From NCBI RefSeq assembly GCF_001904615.1, contig NZ_MRBY01000043.1, forward strand, positions 1 through 35,086: a DNA stretch of 35,086 nucleotides, in the 5' to 3' direction. Shown here piece after piece: positions 8,877 through 31,648 of the stretch; positions within the stretch are counted from its first letter, which is position 1; each line of letters begins with the position of its first letter. The position numbers were made by a program, and so were the translations under genes. The notes beneath the pieces are model-generated. The model had not been told where the DNA came from. It made no database searches and saw only the letters and a list, made by a program, of their open reading frames with translations. The stretch comes from [Limnothrix rosea] IAM M-220 (GTDB lineage Bacteria > Cyanobacteriota > Cyanobacteriia > Cyanobacteriales > MRBY01).

Positions 8877-8932
8877 AATGGTTAGCGCAAGATGAAATAG
8901 ATGGCATAAGCATAGCGAAAAAAAGTAGTTAT

Positions 8933-8969
8933 AAAAAAGTCTCCGCAGGTTAGAGATAGTGCGGAGACT
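8933..8969 (-). terminator. Terminator of thrS
   Basis: On the minus strand AGTCTCCGCA and TGCGGAGACT form a perfect 10-base stem with a 12-base loop, followed by a run of T residues. It lies 37 bases past the thrS stop and upstream of mscS. Confidence 0.9.
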
Positions 8970-9005
8970 GAATGTTTTTCTTTAGAAAATGTTGTGGTTA
9001 AGGGT

Positions 9006-10820
9006 CTAGAAATTGGTGTGGTTTGTATTCGCTTCTACCAAACGTTCAACCACTTCTGCCATGGGCAAAGCTCCTAATTCACCGGAGGCACGGGTACGAA
9101 TGCTTAAGCTATTGGCTTCAACTTCCTTTGCGCCAGCGACTGCCATGACGGGAATTTTTTGCTTCTCGGCGTTACGAATGAGTTTACCGAGGCGATCGCC
9201 GGATGTATCAGCGACGGCACGAATCCCAAGGGCTTGGAGTGCTGCTGCTTTTTCTTTGGCATAGGGCAGGAAGTCATCGCCGACGGCAAGAATACGAACT
9301 TGCTCCGGTGCTAGCCACAATGGGAAATCTCCGGCATATTCTTCGATGAGAATGCCGATGAGACGTTCTAAAGATCCAAAGGGCGCACGGTGAATCATTA
9401 CAGGACGTTGGCGATCGCCGCTTTCATTGACATATTCCAGCTCAAAGCGTTCGGGGAGATTGTAATCCACTTGAACTGTTCCTAATTGCCATTCCCGCTC
9501 CAGTACATCTTGGAAAATGAAGTCCAGCTTAGGGCCATAGAATGCCGCTTCCCCTTCCGCTTCAAAGTGCTCCATATCAAGATCTACCACCGCTTTACGG
9601 ATGGCATTTTGCGCCTTTTCCCAAACCTCATCGGAACCAATATATTTGTCGGAGTTGGGATCGCGGAAACTCAAACGCGCCTTGAAATTTTTGAGCTGTA
9701 AACTCTTAAAGACCGTCAAAATCAGATCAACAACGTTAAAGAATTCTTTCTCAAGCTGATCAGGCGTAACGAAGAGGTGAGAGTCATCCACGGTAAAGCC
9801 GCGCACACGGGTTAAACCACCCAACTCACCGGATTGCTCATAGCGATAAACCGTACCGAATTCCGCCAAGCGCATCGGCAAATCACGGTAGGAACGTAAC
9901 TGATCCTTATAAATCTGGATGTGGAAAGGACAGTTCATCGGCTTCATCACAAAGCCCTGTTCTGCCAATTTCGCTTCTTCGCTTTCCGCCATCATGGGGA
10001 ACATATCTTCGCGATAGTTCTGCCAATGACCAGATGTTTTAAATAGATCAACCCGCGCAATGTGGGGAGTGACAACGCCTTGGTAGCCGCGCTTAGTCTG
10101 TTCGTCCTTTAGGAAATTTTCGAGGGTAGACCGAATCAAAGTTCCCTTGGGAGTCCAGAGGGGTAAACCAGGGCCAACGACATCAGAAAACAAAAATAAA
10201 CCGAGGTCTTTACCTAATTTACGGTGATCCCGCTTGAGGGCCTCTTCCTTACGGCGTTTGTATTCTTTGAGCTGTTCTGGGGTTTCCCAAGCTGTGCCAT
10301 AAATCCGCTGGAGCTGTTGATTATTTTCATCACCACGCCAGTAGGCTCCCGCTACCGATTCGAGGGCGATCGCCTTCGGATTTAGCTCACCAGTCGTTTC
10401 GACGTGGGGGCCAGCACAAAGATCCCACCACTTATCCTCCATGTGATAGAGCGTGATTGGTTCTTCGAGACCTTCAAGGATTTCGAGTTTGTAGGGTTCA
10501 TTGATTTCCTTGATGCGCTTTTCTGCTTCCTCGCGAGAAACCTCTTCCCGCACAACTGCATACTTTTTCTTGATGATCTTCACCATCTCTTTTTTGATGG
10601 TTTTGAGATCTTTATCAGTGAAGGGTTCTTCTTTATCGAAGTCGTAATAAAAACCGTTTTCCGTCCAAGGACCAATGGTCACCTGTGCATCGGGGAAAAT
10701 CTTTTGTACAGCCATGGCCATCACGTGGGATGCCGTGTGACGAATGCGCTTTAAATTCTCCGATTCACTGGTTTTCGGAAGTTTCATGGGTTCATGTTGA
10801 TCACCATTCGCTTCAGCCAT
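9006..10820 (-). CDS. thrS: Threonyl-tRNA synthetase
   Basis: 604 residues from the preferred start at 10820, which has AAGGAGAG about 10 bases upstream; an ATG at 10877 would add 19 residues but has no ribosome binding site. The enzyme charges tRNA-Thr. The editing-domain zinc-type motif is complete (HTASH, H28 and H32; CAGPH, C135 and H139). The class II catalytic core has motif 2 (TVYRYEQSGELGG) and the zinc ligands C297 (MNCPFH), H348 (DSHLF) and H477 (MIHRAPFGS). The C-terminal anticodon-binding domain is present. The N-terminal TGS domain found in E. coli ThrRS is missing, and the protein starts almost directly at the editing domain. It is a single-gene unit closed by the terminator at 8933-8969. 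Confidence 0.96.
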   Translation of the reverse strand: MAEANGDQHEPMKLPKTSESENLKRIRHTASHVMAMAVQKIFPDAQVTIGPWTENGFYYDFDKEEPFTDKDLKTIKKEMVKIIKKKYAVVREEVSREEAEKRIKEINEPYKLEILEGLEEPITLYHMEDKWWDLCAGPHVETTGELNPKAIALESVAGAYWRGDENNQQLQRIYGTAWETPEQLKEYKRRKEEALKRDHRKLGKDLGLFLFSDVVGPGLPLWTPKGTLIRSTLENFLKDEQTKRGYQGVVTPHIARVDLFKTSGHWQNYREDMFPMMAESEEAKLAEQGFVMKPMNCPFHIQIYKDQLRSYRDLPMRLAEFGTVYRYEQSGELGGLTRVRGFTVDDSHLFVTPDQLEKEFFNVVDLILTVFKSLQLKNFKARLSFRDPNSDKYIGSDEVWEKAQNAIRKAVVDLDMEHFEAEGEAAFYGPKLDFIFQDVLEREWQLGTVQVDYNLPERFELEYVNESGDRQRPVMIHRAPFGSLERLIGILIEEYAGDFPLWLAPEQVRILAVGDDFLPYAKEKAAALQALGIRAVADTSGDRLGKLIRNAEKQKIPVMAVAGAKEVEANSLSIRTRASGELGALPMAEVVERLVEANTNHTNF

Positions 10821-25758: not shown

Positions 25759-25795
25759 TTTTTGCTCTCAATTCCGTATATTTTTAGTCTGAATC

Positions 25796-25999
25796 CTAAG
25801 ACATTGTCAGGTCAGCTATTTTTAATTCCGAGATTGCACTGGCGATCGCCTCCCCAATCACAGCTAAACCGTATAAAACAACCCGCAACGCCTGCTGATT
25901 TTTGACAAAAGTTTTGATGTTTAAATTATTGATCGTATTTTCGATCACCTCAATTTCTGCCAACATGTCCTGTATCCGTAACCTAAATTCTCTAGACAG
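25796..25999 (-). pseudogene. hepT: HepT-like toxin gene, truncated
   Basis: The frame reads LSREFRLRIQDMLAEIEVIE, ...INNLNIKTFVKNQQALRV and VLYGLAVIGEAIAS, then stops at TAG 25796 after about 67 residues. This is the N-terminal half of a HEPN/HepT protein, including the VIGEA motif. The C-terminal half with the RNase motif (R-x4-6-H) is missing. The position of the start, overlapping the mntA stop, now holds CTG instead of ATG or GTG. Both defects point to a dead toxin. It lies directly behind mntA, as in type VII toxin-antitoxin modules. Confidence 0.7.
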
Positions 26000-26282
26000 C
26001 TCGAACCACCTCTTTTAAGACTGTCTCTCGTAAATGAGGGCGTAGAGAATCTGCTGTGCCAATATCGACCTCACATCCCAACAAATCTTCTAAAAATGCT
26101 TTTAATCCTAGTAGCGTAAATAAACCTACTGGACGACTAAAATTCACAAGAAAGTCTACATCACTAGCTGTCGTTGCCTCATCTCGCGCCACTGAGCCAA
26201 ATAAGAACAAATCTTTTACTGCAAAATCATTGAGGCGCTCTTGATGGGCTTTGACAATATCTAAAACTTCTTGTCTATCCAT
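25992..26282 (-). CDS. mntA: MntA-like nucleotidyltransferase antitoxin
   Basis: 96 residues from ATG 26282 (MDRQEVLDIVKAHQ...). A longer TTG-started form to 26348 is unlikely. The minimal nucleotidyltransferase motif is intact: FLFGSVARDEATTASDVDFLV gives GS...DxD, and a third acidic residue is in CEVDIG. MntA proteins AMPylate and silence the HepT toxin encoded by the next gene. Here that partner is truncated, so the antitoxin may be a survivor without a target or act on another HepT. AAGGAG lies directly before the ATG, with GGAGAG 12 bases further out. Confidence 0.85.
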   Translation of the reverse strand: MDRQEVLDIVKAHQERLNDFAVKDLFLFGSVARDEATTASDVDFLVNFSRPVGLFTLLGLKAFLEDLLGCEVDIGTADSLRPHLRETVLKEVVRAV

Positions 26283-26357
26283 CTCCTTAGAATCTCTCCA
26301 ATGTTCGTGCTTTGTTGACTGTATTTTAGTCTTCAGGCTGACTCCCAATCATCCCCA

Positions 26358-26501
26358 GTGATTAGTCTGTTGGCCGCGGGAGTATTACGGGCAAAATGCA
26401 GTTATAACGTCACTGTTTATGAGCAGGCGGCGATCGCCCTTCATTACGTGTGTTTTTTAGAGCAATACATTTTCGACAACCTTATACCATTGTTAGGGTA
26501 A
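26358..26501 (+). pseudogene. Fragment of an FAD-dependent oxidoreductase, copy 2
   Basis: One frame reads VISLLAAGVLRAKCSYNVTV then YEQAAIA, which fits helix 1 and strand 2 of an FAD-binding Rossmann fold (usually GAGIxGLxAAxxLxxxGYxVTVYEQA). The preceding GxGxxG is lost, and from 26439 on the frame no longer resembles the family before TAA at 26499. It starts just beyond the mntA promoter region, on the opposite strand. Confidence 0.5.
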
Positions 26502-26883
26502 ATTATCGCAGAACAAACTATATTTACTAATAATTGATATGCCACTTTGGGCTGATATTTTGGGATAAGACAACAGCTAAAAGTATTCTAGGTTACAATC
26601 TGGTTATGCTAATATTTACCTCCGACAGAAAATGTGTTTTTATCTTATTAATCAAGATATTTGATTAAATTATCATTACTCTTAAGAGTTTTTTGATTTT
26701 ATAGGGACGATTGTCTTTTTTTTGGTTAGATCCGAAATAATAAAAAAGAGCAATTTTTAATAGATATACCTATTTTATGCTTGAAAACATAAAAGAAAAT
26801 ATCAAATTTCAGGAAGGAGCGATGATTTTAAAATAGCTTTTCGAGAATTTTTTGTAATAATTTATTAAAGAGAAGTCTACCTG
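26502..26883 (+). promoter_or_regulatory. AT-rich leader of the DUF1611/racemase operon with several hairpins
   Basis: 382 bases, clearly AT-richer than the surroundings, without a gene. It contains TTAATCAA/TTGATTAA (26648-26668), the palindrome ACTCTTAAGAGT followed by a run of T residues (26678-26694), which looks like a short terminator or attenuator, and TTTTATG/CATAAAA (26773-26794). A Shine-Dalgarno-bearing mini-ORF at 26822 follows. The set suggests regulation by a long 5' leader. No known riboswitch was recognised. Confidence 0.4.
26822..26836 (+). other. Mini-ORF with strong ribosome binding site in the leader
   Basis: AGGAAGGAG (26811-26819) precedes ATG ATT TTA AAA TAG, a four-residue frame. 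It lies 47 bases before the DUF1611 start, which has only a weaker AGAGAAG. It could be a translational start-stop element controlling the operon, or a decayed gene start. Confidence 0.3.
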
Positions 26884-28005
26884 ATGGCAATCACGAAAAA
26901 AACGGCACTGATTTACTGCCAAGATCAATTTGGTTTAGTAGACGGAAAAACAACAGCTGCCTTGGTTCGGCACTCAGAGCTTTATACAATTGTGGGTGTG
27001 ATTGATAGCTTATCAGCAGGTAAGGATGCCGGGGAAACCTTAGGAGAAGCAACGAGTCATATCCCTATATTTTTTGATTTTCAGGATGCCTTAGCCCATC
27101 TTTCAGAAACGCCAAACTGCTATATTTATGGCAAAGCACCATTGGATGCTTGCATTCCTGATGATGAAAGACTTTTGATTTTAGAAGCCATGGAACATGG
27201 CATGGATATTATTAATGGTCTCCACGAATTTTTCTCGGAAGATCCAGAATTTGTTGCCGTGGCTGCCCAAAATAATGTCCAAATTAAAGACATTAGAAAA
27301 TCACCAAATGTAAAAGATCTCCATGTTTTTTCAGGGCGAATTTATGAGGTTACTGTGCCAGTCATCGCCATATTGGGAACTGATTGTGCCTGTGGCAAAA
27401 TGACCACTGCTGTGGAACTAAATAATATTTTAAATAGGCTTGGTATTAAGTCTGTATTAGTGGCGACGGGTCAGACTAGTTTGATGCAGGGAGCGGTTTA
27501 TGGTGCTTCGATTGATGCTCTTATTTCGCAATTTGTCATCGGTGAAATCGAAAATGCTGTGGTTCAGGCGTTCGAGCAAGAAAGGCCGGATATTATTTTG
27601 GTCGAGGGGCAAAGTGCTGTCAGTCATCCTGCTTTTATGAGTTCTTTGGGTATTTTGAAAGGTAGTATGCCGGACGGCATTATTTTGCAACATCCACCAG
27701 CACGGGAGTTTCGATGTGATTTTCCGGCTTTATTGATGCCGACTATTGAGAGCGAAATTCAGCTGATTGAGACAATTTCGAGTGCTAGGGTGTTGGCGAT
27801 CGCCTTAAGTCACGAAAATTTGGCAACGGAAGAGATTTTGAGCACGATTCAGCAATATGAGGCTCAGCTAAATCTGCCGACGACGGATGTATTGAGCTAT
27901 GGCTGCCAAAAATTGATCCAATCATTAGCTGTTCATTTTCCTAAACTGAGTCAAAAGATTAAGCCAGAAAATTTACCAGAGACCCGTGTTTTAGCAAAAG
28001 CATAG
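26884..28005 (+). CDS. DUF1611-family P-loop protein (DgcN-like)
   Basis: 373 residues. The N-terminal half (about 1-155) is the family's Rossmann-like domain. The C-terminal half has a P-loop-like motif GTDCACGKMTT (165-175), then VATGQTSLMQGA (193-204) and ILVEGQSAVSHPA (238-250), the conserved core of DUF1611. One characterised member, DgcN, is to my memory an N-acyltransferase acting on D-glutamate that works with the racemase/epimerase DgcA. Here the partner, 20 bases downstream, is a PLP racemase instead, so the pair probably handles a D- or L-amino acid in two steps. Substrate and direction are unknown. The gene follows a long hairpin-rich leader. Confidence 0.85.
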   Translation: MAITKKTALIYCQDQFGLVDGKTTAALVRHSELYTIVGVIDSLSAGKDAGETLGEATSHIPIFFDFQDALAHLSETPNCYIYGKAPLDACIPDDERLLILEAMEHGMDIINGLHEFFSEDPEFVAVAAQNNVQIKDIRKSPNVKDLHVFSGRIYEVTVPVIAILGTDCACGKMTTAVELNNILNRLGIKSVLVATGQTSLMQGAVYGASIDALISQFVIGEIENAVVQAFEQERPDIILVEGQSAVSHPAFMSSLGILKGSMPDGIILQHPPAREFRCDFPALLMPTIESEIQLIETISSARVLAIALSHENLATEEILSTIQQYEAQLNLPTTDVLSYGCQKLIQSLAVHFPKLSQKIKPENLPETRVLAKA

Positions 28006-28025
28006 ATGATTTTTTAGAAAAATAA

Positions 28026-29093
28026 ATGCAACCATTTATGCCGAGGATGGAAATAGATCTATCCAAAATACGGGCTAATACTCGGATTCTGGCAGATCTT
28101 TATGGGGCACAAGGTATTTCTATTATGGGTGTTTCTAAGGCTGTCCTTGGGGAACCTGCAATTATCGAAGCGATGGTACAAGGGGGGGTTAAATTTATTG
28201 CGGACTCTCGCCTTGAAAATATTCAAAGAATGCAGGCTGCGGGTATATCGACTGATTTTGTGCTGTTGCGTACGGCTCCCAGTCAGGCAGAATTGATTGT
28301 TGAAATTGTCGATATTAGTCTAAATTCTGAGCTGGAAACGATTAGAAAAATTGCCTATTATGCGGGTTTAAGTAATAAGATTCATCGGATAATTTTGATG
28401 GTGGAGTTGGGCGATCGCCGCGAAGGGATATTACCTTGTGATCTAGCCGAATTTATCGGAGAAGTTTTAAAGTTAAGCCAAATCAAACTTGTTGGACTTG
28501 GTTGTAATTTGGCTTGCTATGGCGGCATTAAACCAGATGATCAAAATATGCATGGGCTATCAGAACAAGTTGAGTTACTCGAAAGGAAATTTTTGATTGA
28601 TTTCAGCATTGTTTCAGGGGGAAACTCCGCCAACTATGATTGGTATAAGGAAACCCAAGCTGTAGGGAGAGTTAATAATTTGCGCTTGGGAGAATCCATT
28701 TTTCTCGGCTGTGAAACAGTTTATGGCAATGTGATTCCGGGCTTACAGACTAAGGCTTTTCAGCTGGTGGCTGAGGTGATCGAATCTAAAAAAAAGCCAT
28801 CTTTACCTTTTGGTGAAATTTGCCGAGATGCCTTTGGTAATGTACCAATTTTTCAAGATCAAGGTATACATCAAAGGTCAATCATTGCATTAGGAAAACA
28901 AGATACTTTGGTTTCTGGTTTAAGCTTAGATCGCCCTTTAAAAATATTAGGCTCTAGTAGCGACCATCTTATTCTTGATAGTGGAAAACATAATTTACAA
29001 GTTGGGGATGCGGTGAATTTTAGCCTCAATTATGGCAGTCTACTTCGGGCTATGACTTCTCCGTTTATTCGTAAGCAGTTTATGGATAGTTGA
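28026..29093 (+). CDS. Alanine/ornithine racemase-family PLP enzyme
   Basis: 355 residues of fold type III. The PLP lysine is K38 in IMGVSKAVLG, in the usual N-terminal barrel position after MEIDLSKIRANTRIL. SGGNSANY (about 198-205) and NNLRLGESIFLGCETVYG match the ornithine racemase/YhfX branch more than true alanine racemase. It should interconvert L and D forms of an amino acid such as ornithine, lysine or an acyl derivative. The 20-base gap to the DUF1611 gene marks them as one operon. No biosynthetic neighbour reveals the substrate. No terminator was seen after it. Confidence 0.88.
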   Translation: MQPFMPRMEIDLSKIRANTRILADLYGAQGISIMGVSKAVLGEPAIIEAMVQGGVKFIADSRLENIQRMQAAGISTDFVLLRTAPSQAELIVEIVDISLNSELETIRKIAYYAGLSNKIHRIILMVELGDRREGILPCDLAEFIGEVLKLSQIKLVGLGCNLACYGGIKPDDQNMHGLSEQVELLERKFLIDFSIVSGGNSANYDWYKETQAVGRVNNLRLGESIFLGCETVYGNVIPGLQTKAFQLVAEVIESKKKPSLPFGEICRDAFGNVPIFQDQGIHQRSIIALGKQDTLVSGLSLDRPLKILGSSSDHLILDSGKHNLQVGDAVNFSLNYGSLLRAMTSPFIRKQFMDS

Positions 29094-29938: not shown

Positions 29939-31648
29939 TTAGAAAAGAAAATATCTTTGAGCCATTGGCAAGACTGTCGCGGGTTCGCAGACCAGAAGTT
30001 CACCATCGGCACGCACTTGGTAAGTCTCTGGATCTACTTCCATTTTAGGCAAGTAATCATTAAGCTTCAGGTCGGCTTTGCTGAGATTTCGGCAGCCAGA
30101 AACAGGCAGAACCGTTTTTTGTAAACCAAGTTTTGTGGCGACATCGGCTTCTATTGCTGCTTGGGAAACGAAGGTTAAAGACGTGGGATTAATGGCTCTG
30201 CCGTAGCTGGCAAACATGGGGCGCATATGGACGGGTTGTGGGGTGGGAATGCTGGCATTGGGGTCTCCCATCTGGGCGTAGGCGATCGCCCCGCCTTTAA
30301 GGACGAGTTCAGGTTTTACGCCGAAGAAACTGGGTTTCCAGAGACAAAGATCCGCGTATTTTCCTTCTTCCACAGAACCAACATAATTGGCGATGCCGTG
30401 GGTAATGGCGGGATTAATCGTGTACTTCGCGATGTAGCGTTTAATGCGGAAGTTATCGTTATCGCCTGTTTCCTCTGATAATGCGCCCCGCTGCACCTTC
30501 ATTTTGTGGGCGGTTTGCCAAGTACGAATCACGGTTTCTCCCACACGACCCATAGCCTGAGAATCCGATGCAATCATGCTAAATGCCCCCATGTCGTGGA
30601 GGATATCCTCGGCGGCGATCGTTTCGCGACGGATACGGGACTCCGCAAACGCCACATCTTCGGGAATGCTCTTGTCGAGGTGATGGCACACCATCAACAT
30701 ATCAAGGTGCTCTTCGAGGGTATTCATGGTGTAGGGACGGGTGGGATTGGTTGATGATGGCAATACGTTTGCCTCTCCGCAAACTTTAATGATGTCCGGT
30801 GCGTGGCCGCCTCCAGCCCCTTCGGTGTGATAGGTGTGAATGACGCGATTTTTAAATGCTCCAATTGTTGTTTCCACAAAACCTGCTTCGTTGAGGGTAT
30901 CGGTGTGGATGGCGACTTGCACATCAAAGGCATCGGCAACTCCTAAACAGGTATCAATGGTTGCGGGAGTTGTCCCCCAGTCTTCGTGGAGTTTTAAACC
31001 AATTACCCCGGCTCTAACCTGCTCAATCAGACCTTCGGGTTTCGCGCTATTGCCCTTCCCGGAAAAACCGATATTCATCGGGAAAGCTTCTGCGGCTTCG
31101 AGCATTCGATAAATGTTCCATTCGCCGGGCGTACAGGTTGTTGCATTGGTTCCCGTCGCTGGGCCTGTGCCGCCGCCAATCATGGTCGTAATCCCACTGG
31201 CGATCGCCACCTCGATTTGCTGGGGACAAATAAAGTGAATGTGACTGTCGATGCCACCCGCTGTGAGGATATGTCCTTCTCCGGCGATCGCCTCAGTGCC
31301 GGGGCCAATAATGATATCAATATTATCCTGAATATCTGGGTTGCCCGCCTTACCGATTTTGTGAATTTTGCCATCTTTAATGCCAATATCGGCTTTAACG
31401 ATGCCCCACCAATCAACGATGAGCGCGTTAGTAATCACCACATCAACAGCACCATCTGCACGAGTCACCGCCGACTGACCCATGCCATCGCGGATCACCT
31501 TACCCCCACCAAATTTGACCTCATCACCGTAGGTCGTAAAATCCCGTTCAACTTCGAGCCAAAGTTCCGTATCTGCCAAGCGCAGGCGATCGCCAACCGT
31601 AGGACCATAGGTTTCAGCGTAGGCGCGGCGGGACATACGATAGCTCAT
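29939..31648 (-). CDS. ureC: Urease alpha subunit
   Basis: 569 residues, the standard length of the catalytic subunit that hydrolyses urea to ammonia and carbamate. All nickel-site residues are present: H136 and H138 (DSHIHFI), the carbamylated lysine K219 (GLKLHEDWG), H248, H274 and D362. The mobile flap has C321 and H322 (MVCHHLDKS). The start has AAGGAG five bases upstream. No ureA, ureB or accessory genes are in the window, as is common in cyanobacteria where urease genes are scattered. The spacer to the methyltransferase gene (31649-31925) should hold its promoter; I could not find a convincing NtcA site there. Confidence 0.97.

Follow-up and report, generated by a model that had tools for sequence, protein, structure and literature searches.

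The two genes and their conservation

A 35,086-nt stretch of DNA from the cyanobacterium [Limnothrix rosea] IAM M-220 (RefSeq assembly GCF_001904615.1, contig NZ_MRBY01000043.1, positions 1 to 35,086 of the forward strand), hereafter the window, carries two neighboring open reading frames (ORFs), one encoding a protein of the DUF1611 family and the other a pyridoxal phosphate (PLP)-dependent racemase-like protein (Table 1). A first-pass annotation, made from the sequence alone, had read them as a two-gene pair, and both ORFs were indeed found as placed, on the plus strand with a gap of 20 nt.

Table 1. Features of the DUF1611-racemase locus (window coordinates)
Feature	Position	Strand	Basis
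DUF1611 protein ORF, 373 aa	26884..28005	+	ORF finding; PF07755 2.6e-64, PF17396 4.8e-21
PLP fold-III racemase-like ORF, 355 aa, Orr-like subfamily	28026..29093	+	PF01168 2.3e-21
P-loop GTDCACGKMTT, residues 165-175	27376..27408	+	D167, G171 and K172 in 134/134 aligned DUF1611 rows
EGQ motif, residues 241-243	27604..27612	+	134/134 rows; 42/42 of alignment A2
Lys38, PLP lysine by homology	28137..28139	+	31/31 rows; inside the conserved K-containing stretch of the Alr profile alignment
NSANYDW subfamily signature	28623..28643	+	Asn203 and Trp206 invariant in 31/31 paired rows
DAFG motif, Phe270 at the Alr second-base tyrosine place	28827..28838	+	hhalign profile alignment
Intergenic stretch before the pair, 535 nt	26349..26883		Divergent nucleotidyltransferase gene beyond

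Scanning of GTDB genomes with a seven-sequence racemase alignment, from which the best 80 of 578 relatives were kept by similarity, revealed that DUF1611 and this racemase form a conserved two-gene unit. Among these near relatives, a DUF1611 gene lies directly upstream of the racemase in 75 of the 80 loci, is one ORF away in L088 and is absent from four. In 69 of the 75 adjacent loci the two genes are no more than 30 nt apart, with overlaps counted, which are approximate since ORF starts were assigned mechanically. The hosts include Cyanobacteriota, Nitrospinota, relatives of Desulfobulbaceae, Bacteroidota, bacilli and archaeal metagenome-assembled genomes (MAGs); no racemase relative was found in viral contigs. 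A link to salt or cold habitats, considered from the organism names, was dropped because freshwater hosts occur too. Beyond the racemase, DUF1611 and the M15 peptidase described below, no neighbor family was present in more than 9 of the 80 loci.

The same picture emerged from a phylum sample of 291 cyanobacterial genomes, in which all seven strong matches to the ornithine racemase (Orr) model (>280 bits) adjoin DUF1611; the ORFs of the six genomes other than the window's were read, one of them partly masked. Weak Orr-like matches in 104 further genomes did not exceed 54.5 bits. Six of the seven strong-match genomes contain a second DUF1611 gene over cut-off, and the single DUF1611 match of the window's genome is the racemase-paired one. 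The 20 best-scoring DUF1611 loci of this survey all have the other form of DUF1611, with an enolase-type gene in view in 17. In the surveys of Bacteroidota (198 genomes) and Bacillota (199 genomes), no pair was adjacent except that of the centre genome, chosen for having it; partners of survey loci were sought within about 1.5 kb. For Bacillota, 52 strong matches (>190 bits) were listed, and a DUF1611 match above 32 bits was found in one of its 199 genomes (G291). The control genome of Thermotoga maritima gave matches to both families at the genome level. The possibility that the two genes are rarely adjacent elsewhere, raised in the first-pass annotation, thus fails for this racemase branch.

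Several loci showed individual features. Two DUF1611 genes surround a racemase and an M15 gene in L125 (2668-6903), and DUF1611 is split over two overlapping ORFs in L075 (5858-6978), by frameshift or assembly error. A Bacteroidota subfamily of Orr-like racemases (L149-L174) scores about 227-332 bits against the Orr model and has no DUF1611 in view.

The racemase belongs to a separate clade

The racemase matches PF01168 with 77 bits, and its predicted structure (predicted local distance difference test score, pLDDT, 93.4) models as an alanine racemase fold (Z 29.8, 328 aligned residues, root-mean-square deviation 2.7) with Lys38 in place; the D-threonine aldolase fold is also near (Z 27.4). 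These data agree with the initial assignment as a fold III PLP racemase. The label of ornithine/alanine racemase, however, could not be maintained. The protein scores 386.3 bits against racem_Orr (NF040742), below the cut-off of 480, lies outside the group of above-cut-off Orr sequences and differs from Orr after the conserved GGNS; Orr was ruled out by this score and by the tree position. Nor was the C-terminal domain of alanine racemase (Alr), Ala_racemase_C (PF00842), found in it, PF01168 being the only match.

In a tree of 143 racemases, 83 DUF1611-paired rows (the window, six survey genomes and 76 of the 80 loci) and four paired with a D-Ala-D-Ala-ligase (Ddl)-like gene fall on one side of a branch with a Shimodaira-Hasegawa-like approximate likelihood ratio of 100. 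All 56 unpaired Orr-like rows (27 from the Bacteroidota and 29 from the Bacillota survey), four above the Orr cut-off among them, fall on the opposite side. This and the other trees are quick searches with midpoint rooting.

The invariant Trp206 of the paired racemases is replaced by Leu, Met or Ile in the nine Orr-type rows shown, suggesting that the substrate need not be ornithine. At the place of Alr Tyr265, which we take to be the second catalytic base, Phe is found in seven of eight paired rows and in all nine Orr-type rows shown. The claim that both enzymes keep their key residues therefore stands for the P-loop of the DUF1611 protein and for Lys38; for the racemase it holds for the lysine only, because Phe270 replaces the tyrosine.

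The DUF1611 protein has an invariant P-loop site

Membership of the first protein in DUF1611 is clear from PF07755 (216.8 bits, cut-off 25) and from the N-terminal family PF17396, DUF1611_N (75.3 bits, cut-off 22.6). Its best NCBIfam match is the DgcN equivalog model NF041892, with 147.1 bits against a cut-off of 480, so that it is DgcN-like, as first annotated, and not a DgcN equivalog. The predicted structure (pLDDT 92.1) consists of an N-terminal Rossmann-like domain and a C-terminal domain that models as a SIMIBI P-loop NTPase. Whole-chain matches are 2obn (Z 41.7), 2g0t (Z 38.2) and DgcN (7xrj, Z 33.6), and the modelled C-terminal domain matches BioD (3of5, Z 14.6), cobyrinate diamide synthase, cDPGS and HypB (Z 14.2), with Z of 13-15 over about 170-190 residues. 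MurD is among the structural matches at a low TM-score (about 0.2); no GNAT-type folds are listed among them, which excludes nothing.

Profile comparison with PDB sequences gave, beyond 2obn, 2g0t and 7xrj, weak matches only, the best being BioD 3of5 (E 0.006); six further BioD sequences (E 0.4-2.7) were mixed with unrelated ones. The BioD model TIGR00347 (cut-off 83.3) did not match the window protein at E 0.001 and gave 25.9 bits with the DUF1611 protein of the relative L112.

Besides the P-loop and EGQ residues of Table 1, T195-G196-Q197, D211 and E223 are identical in all 134 aligned DUF1611 rows, whatever the partner, and the predicted NTPase domain would thus carry an invariant nucleotide site. 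The EGQ motif resembles what we take to be the EG motif of BioD/CobQ-type enzymes. Position 248 varies with the partner: it is His in 78/78 racemase-paired proteins, and the 40 enolase-paired rows comprise 25 with His and 15 with Asn. Asn reached at least 90% in the sister-group comparison, which covered 21 rows: the 20 sister-group rows and L192, taken in by a loose name pattern.

The partner enzyme has been exchanged

In the tree of the 134 DUF1611 proteins, all 78 racemase-paired rows lie on one side of a branch with support 93 (not starred), and a single change, in either direction, explains the racemase-paired label. DgcN (7xrj) was entered as presumably enolase-paired; 16 rows have no partner in view, and the placement of 2g0t is unsafe owing to its long branch. 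The nearest group comprises 20 Bacteroidota rows, in 14 of which an enolase-type gene is in view, lying downstream in the same place as the racemase here; in two of the other six (G426 and G361) it lies further downstream. The two enolase partners scanned both match MR_MLE. Since the racemase-paired group stands beside enolase-paired DUF1611, the second gene has been swapped between two unrelated isomerase folds. The conserved pairing, the racemase clade and this grouping bear out the original suggestion of an alternative to the combination of DUF1611 with an enolase-type racemase.

By eye, a fold-II PLP gene stands beside the DUF1611-enolase genes in six of eight sister-group regions (L262-L265, L268 and L270; supported by a Pfam match in L262), and L268 also contains creatininase and CN-hydrolase genes.

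A Ddl-like gene can stand in the place of DUF1611

In four of the 80 loci (L114, L118, L130 and L141), the gene directly upstream of the racemase is a Ddl-like ATP-grasp gene and not DUF1611. Those of L114 and L130, the two scanned with Pfam and NCBIfam, fall below the Ddl subfamily cut-offs, and no DUF1611 was found in the genomes of these two loci. A sample of 227 genomes of the Heimdallarchaeota-labelled phylum of L114 contained the racemase in 24, the centre genome, chosen as such, included. A Ddl-like gene lies upstream in 16 of the 24; among the other eight, one locus is cut by a contig start, one racemase was not recovered by the ORF caller, and six have neither partner in view. No DUF1611 was in view at any of the 25 racemase loci of this sample. 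The distribution of the Ddl-like partner over a 76-row tree calls for five gains or losses, of which starred branches force at least three.

In L130 (1562-5605), octopine dehydrogenase-like, radical-SAM-like (by eye) and Ddl-like genes precede the racemase, a possible natural-product cluster.

An M15 peptidase gene recurs beside the pair

A gene for an M15 (VanX/VanY-like) peptidase is present in at least 18 of the 80 loci, next downstream in 15, fused in two and divergent in one (L121); this count is a lower bound because many loci end at contig ends. The racemase-M15 fusions occur in L116 (5421-7199) and L124 (6998-8737), from MAGs labelled Zixiibacteriota and Celaenobacter, and through them M15 was merged into the racemase cluster when neighbors were clustered. 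M15 was called by a model from seven of the same loci and confirmed with Pfam in L112, L139, L116 and L124; the seven printed sequences keep SxHxxGxAxD and ExWH, which we take to be the M15 motifs. All 14 cyanobacterial carriers checked have an M15 gene elsewhere in the genome.

In L115, a permease-like gene (by eye, 8881-10221) lies downstream of the racemase and M15 genes.

A proposed module for D-amino acids

We propose, with a probability of roughly 0.5, that the pair first racemises and then caps an amino acid. The PLP enzyme would interconvert the L and D forms of a free amino acid, and the DUF1611 protein, through its nucleotide-binding P-loop domain, would cap the amino group of the D form with an acetyl group, another acyl group or a second amino acid. 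Capping would pull racemisation one way, and the product would be a small molecule of D configuration with a capped amino group. Where the partner is of the enolase type, the two steps would run the other way round, the cap being added first and the N-capped amino acid then inverted, and the M15 hydrolase that some lineages encode, at times fused to the racemase, would probably re-open the product. We infer these reactions, their order and their direction; the pairing, its restriction to one racemase clade, the partner swap, the Ddl-like replacement, the M15 link and fusions, the predicted folds and the invariant P-loop are the observations behind them.

A PLP racemase requires a free amino group, and an enolase-type epimerase of this kind works on N-capped amino acids. 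Were DUF1611 to cap the amino group, either type of partner would give the same product class, in opposite order. These two requirements, together with the expected use of a D-amino acid and ATP by the Ddl-like enzyme, favor racemisation followed by capping. As for the nature of the cap, the main evidence for acetyl would be the activity of DgcN, by analogy, 7xrj carrying the title of an N-acetyltransferase in the PDB. Addition of the cap by nucleotide-dependent ligation is a tentative option that we would not bet on.

Several observations weigh against this proposal. DgcN, the only family member with a described activity known to us, is reportedly an N-acetyltransferase, and it is distant and has an enolase-type partner. 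Non-ligases (MinD, ParA and SRP) also stand among the SIMIBI neighbors. Phe at the place of the second base means that inversion must depart from the Alr mechanism in some respect. The cyanobacterial pairs were found to have no M15 gene beside them, and for six archaeal racemases of the clade neither a DUF1611 nor a Ddl-like gene lies within about 1.5 kb. In five Bacteroidota genomes (G361, G376, G418, G426 and G481), the DUF1611 gene is on a different contig from the Orr-like racemase, which belongs to another subfamily. The pair is present in only two of six genomes of the window's genus, in agreement with the accessory character ascribed at first to the region, and the second of these, G706, has a one-base frameshift in its racemase, which may be a sequencing error. 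Presence in two of six and the frameshift indicate that the pair is not essential in the genus. The DUF1611 of G706 is intact and 93.3% identical to that of the window, with a ratio of nonsynonymous to synonymous substitution (dN/dS) of 0.07-0.09, compared with about 0.22 for the racemase before the frameshift and 0.02-0.03 for ffh; the 265-codon racemase comparison passes the frameshift by about ten codons, so that dN is slightly inflated.

Among the alternatives, it is possible, though on balance doubtful, that DUF1611 is a nucleotide-dependent amino-acid ligase, which would activate a carboxylate and join it to the amine of a D-amino acid to give a D-containing dipeptide. The Ddl-like enzyme would then do the same job, M15 would hydrolyse the product and the enolase-type partner would epimerise the dipeptide. 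Such a role is consistent with the repeated gain or loss of the Ddl-like gene in the DUF1611 place, with the lack of any DUF1611 in the genomes of L114 and L130, with M15 as a D,D-dipeptidase/carboxypeptidase family and with the MR_MLE matches of the two scanned enolase partners. ATP-dependent ligases or synthetases (BioD, cobyrinate diamide synthase and cDPGS; MurD weakly) are among the fold neighbors, and the Walker lysine and EGQ are invariant. DgcN, however, shares the fold and is described as an N-acetyltransferase, the same neighbors include the non-ligases named above, and adjacency is no proof of the same reaction. The broadest version, unlikely in our estimate, would make DUF1611 a further amino-acid ligase of this kind, built on a BioD/CobQ-type P-loop domain and not on ATP-grasp or Mur, which with the racemase would produce a non-peptidoglycan D-dipeptide or N-capped D-amino acid in bacteria and archaea, with the Ddl-like enzyme replacing it in several lineages and VanX/VanY-like peptidases undoing the product.

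A catabolic unit, in which M15, where present, releases D-amino acids from peptides, the racemase converts them back to the L form and excess D form is N-acetylated by DUF1611, is likewise unlikely. The M15 neighbors and fusions would fit it, as would the permease-like gene two genes downstream of the racemase in L115, and DgcN-DgcA is presented as a route of D-glutamate utilisation in two papers (PMC10845958, PMC12363236). But a racemase makes disposal by acetylation needless, a Ddl-like ligase standing where DUF1611 would be suggests synthesis and not breakdown, and the permease is not recurrent, no other neighbor family exceeding 9 of the 80 loci. That DUF1611 is a P-loop helper that assembles or activates its partner, as HypB does with metalloenzymes, is improbable: the SIMIBI fold and the HypB match (Z 14.2) would agree, but the partners are two unrelated folds, PLP and enolase-type, which to our general knowledge share no cofactor, a Ddl-like enzyme can replace DUF1611, and DgcN is said to be an enzyme itself. 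A spare alanine racemase for the wall beside an unrelated DUF1611 gene, for which the fold would speak, is scarcely tenable, since adjacency is the rule in this racemase branch and a canonical Alr is present in 18 of 20 genomes checked, the window's included (its one PF00842 match lies elsewhere in the genome, at C8), and the two carriers without an Ala_racemase_C match, Methanogenium-labelled and Heimdallarchaeota-labelled MAGs, keep the racemase; the wall-only role that the first-pass annotation had set against its own proposal is thereby disfavored.

Surroundings of the pair

The 535-nt stretch before the pair had been described as a long leader of its own, a view that found no support. An Rfam scan of 26349..26883 found no known RNA family, comparison with 84 other loci gave no match with E < 0.1, and the part compared with the one genus relative, which starts at 26424, shows 76.5% identity, while the two genes reach 89.6% and 91.3%. 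A riboswitch or conserved RNA was dropped on these three grounds. A short stretch at 26409-26438 that contains GCGATCGC is found again in four genus relatives, within about 0.1-1 kb of the ffh match, and also occurs beyond the pair in G706.

Both pair-bearing genomes of the genus have the pair on the same side of ffh, the intervening nucleotidyltransferase gene being present in the window only. This minus-strand gene (NTP_transf_2, 25992-26348) is presumably of the kind known from MNT-HEPN pairs; the following 25794-25991 contains stops in the single frame tried, so that its partner may be decayed. In G708, DNA similar to the 25992-26348 region is present after ffh. The five other window neighbors scanned are ffh, the nucleotidyltransferase gene, a TerB-like gene (just below cut-off), ureC and a methyltransferase gene; none is a gene of ornithine degradation. 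An Rfam match to 5_ureB_sRNA (RF02514, 110 bits) lies at 31207-31493 on the plus strand, antisense to the minus-strand ureC-like gene.

Comparison with known systems

DUF1611 is widespread, and the library searched contains few papers on it. Nothing was found there that combines DUF1611 with a racemase, nor anything under TM0796, PF07755, Ava_3511 or COG3367, and the term DUF1611 is absent from the accessible part of a penicillin paper that features dipeptide epimerases. If the proposal is true, it would point to a D-amino-acid metabolite outside the cell wall in cyanobacteria, Nitrospina relatives, Bacteroidota, some bacilli and some archaea.

The closest parallel is DgcN-DgcA, the D-glutamate utilisation pathway described in PMC10845958 and PMC12363236. 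The DUF1611 fold, the P-loop and an adjacent enzyme of stereochemistry are common to both. The window protein, however, stays below the DgcN cut-off, and its partner is a PLP racemase needing a free amine and not an enolase-type enzyme: the window neighbor matches PF01168, and no enolase-type gene is among the five others scanned. Orr, which PMC8803604 places in clostridial oxidative ornithine degradation, shares with the window racemase the PLP fold-III family and the Phe at the Alr tyrosine place; the window racemase differs in its sub-cut-off score, its separate clade, Trp206 and the lack of an ornithine degradation gene among the five neighbors scanned.

The Bacteroidota DUF1611-enolase operons have the same layout, with DUF1611 first and the isomerase second, usually overlapping or a short distance apart (the enolase gene is in view in 14 of the 20 rows), and differ in their MR_MLE-type partner (one scanned), the fold-II PLP gene beside them and the mostly Asn position 248. 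The Ddl family, finally, has an ATP-grasp fold unlike that of DUF1611, and the two Ddl-like genes scanned are below its subfamily cut-offs, yet in this same racemase clade a Ddl-like gene can occupy the upstream position of DUF1611. Taken together, the partner swap, the Ddl-like replacement and the racemase-M15 fusion would narrow the reaction to the amino group of a D-amino acid.

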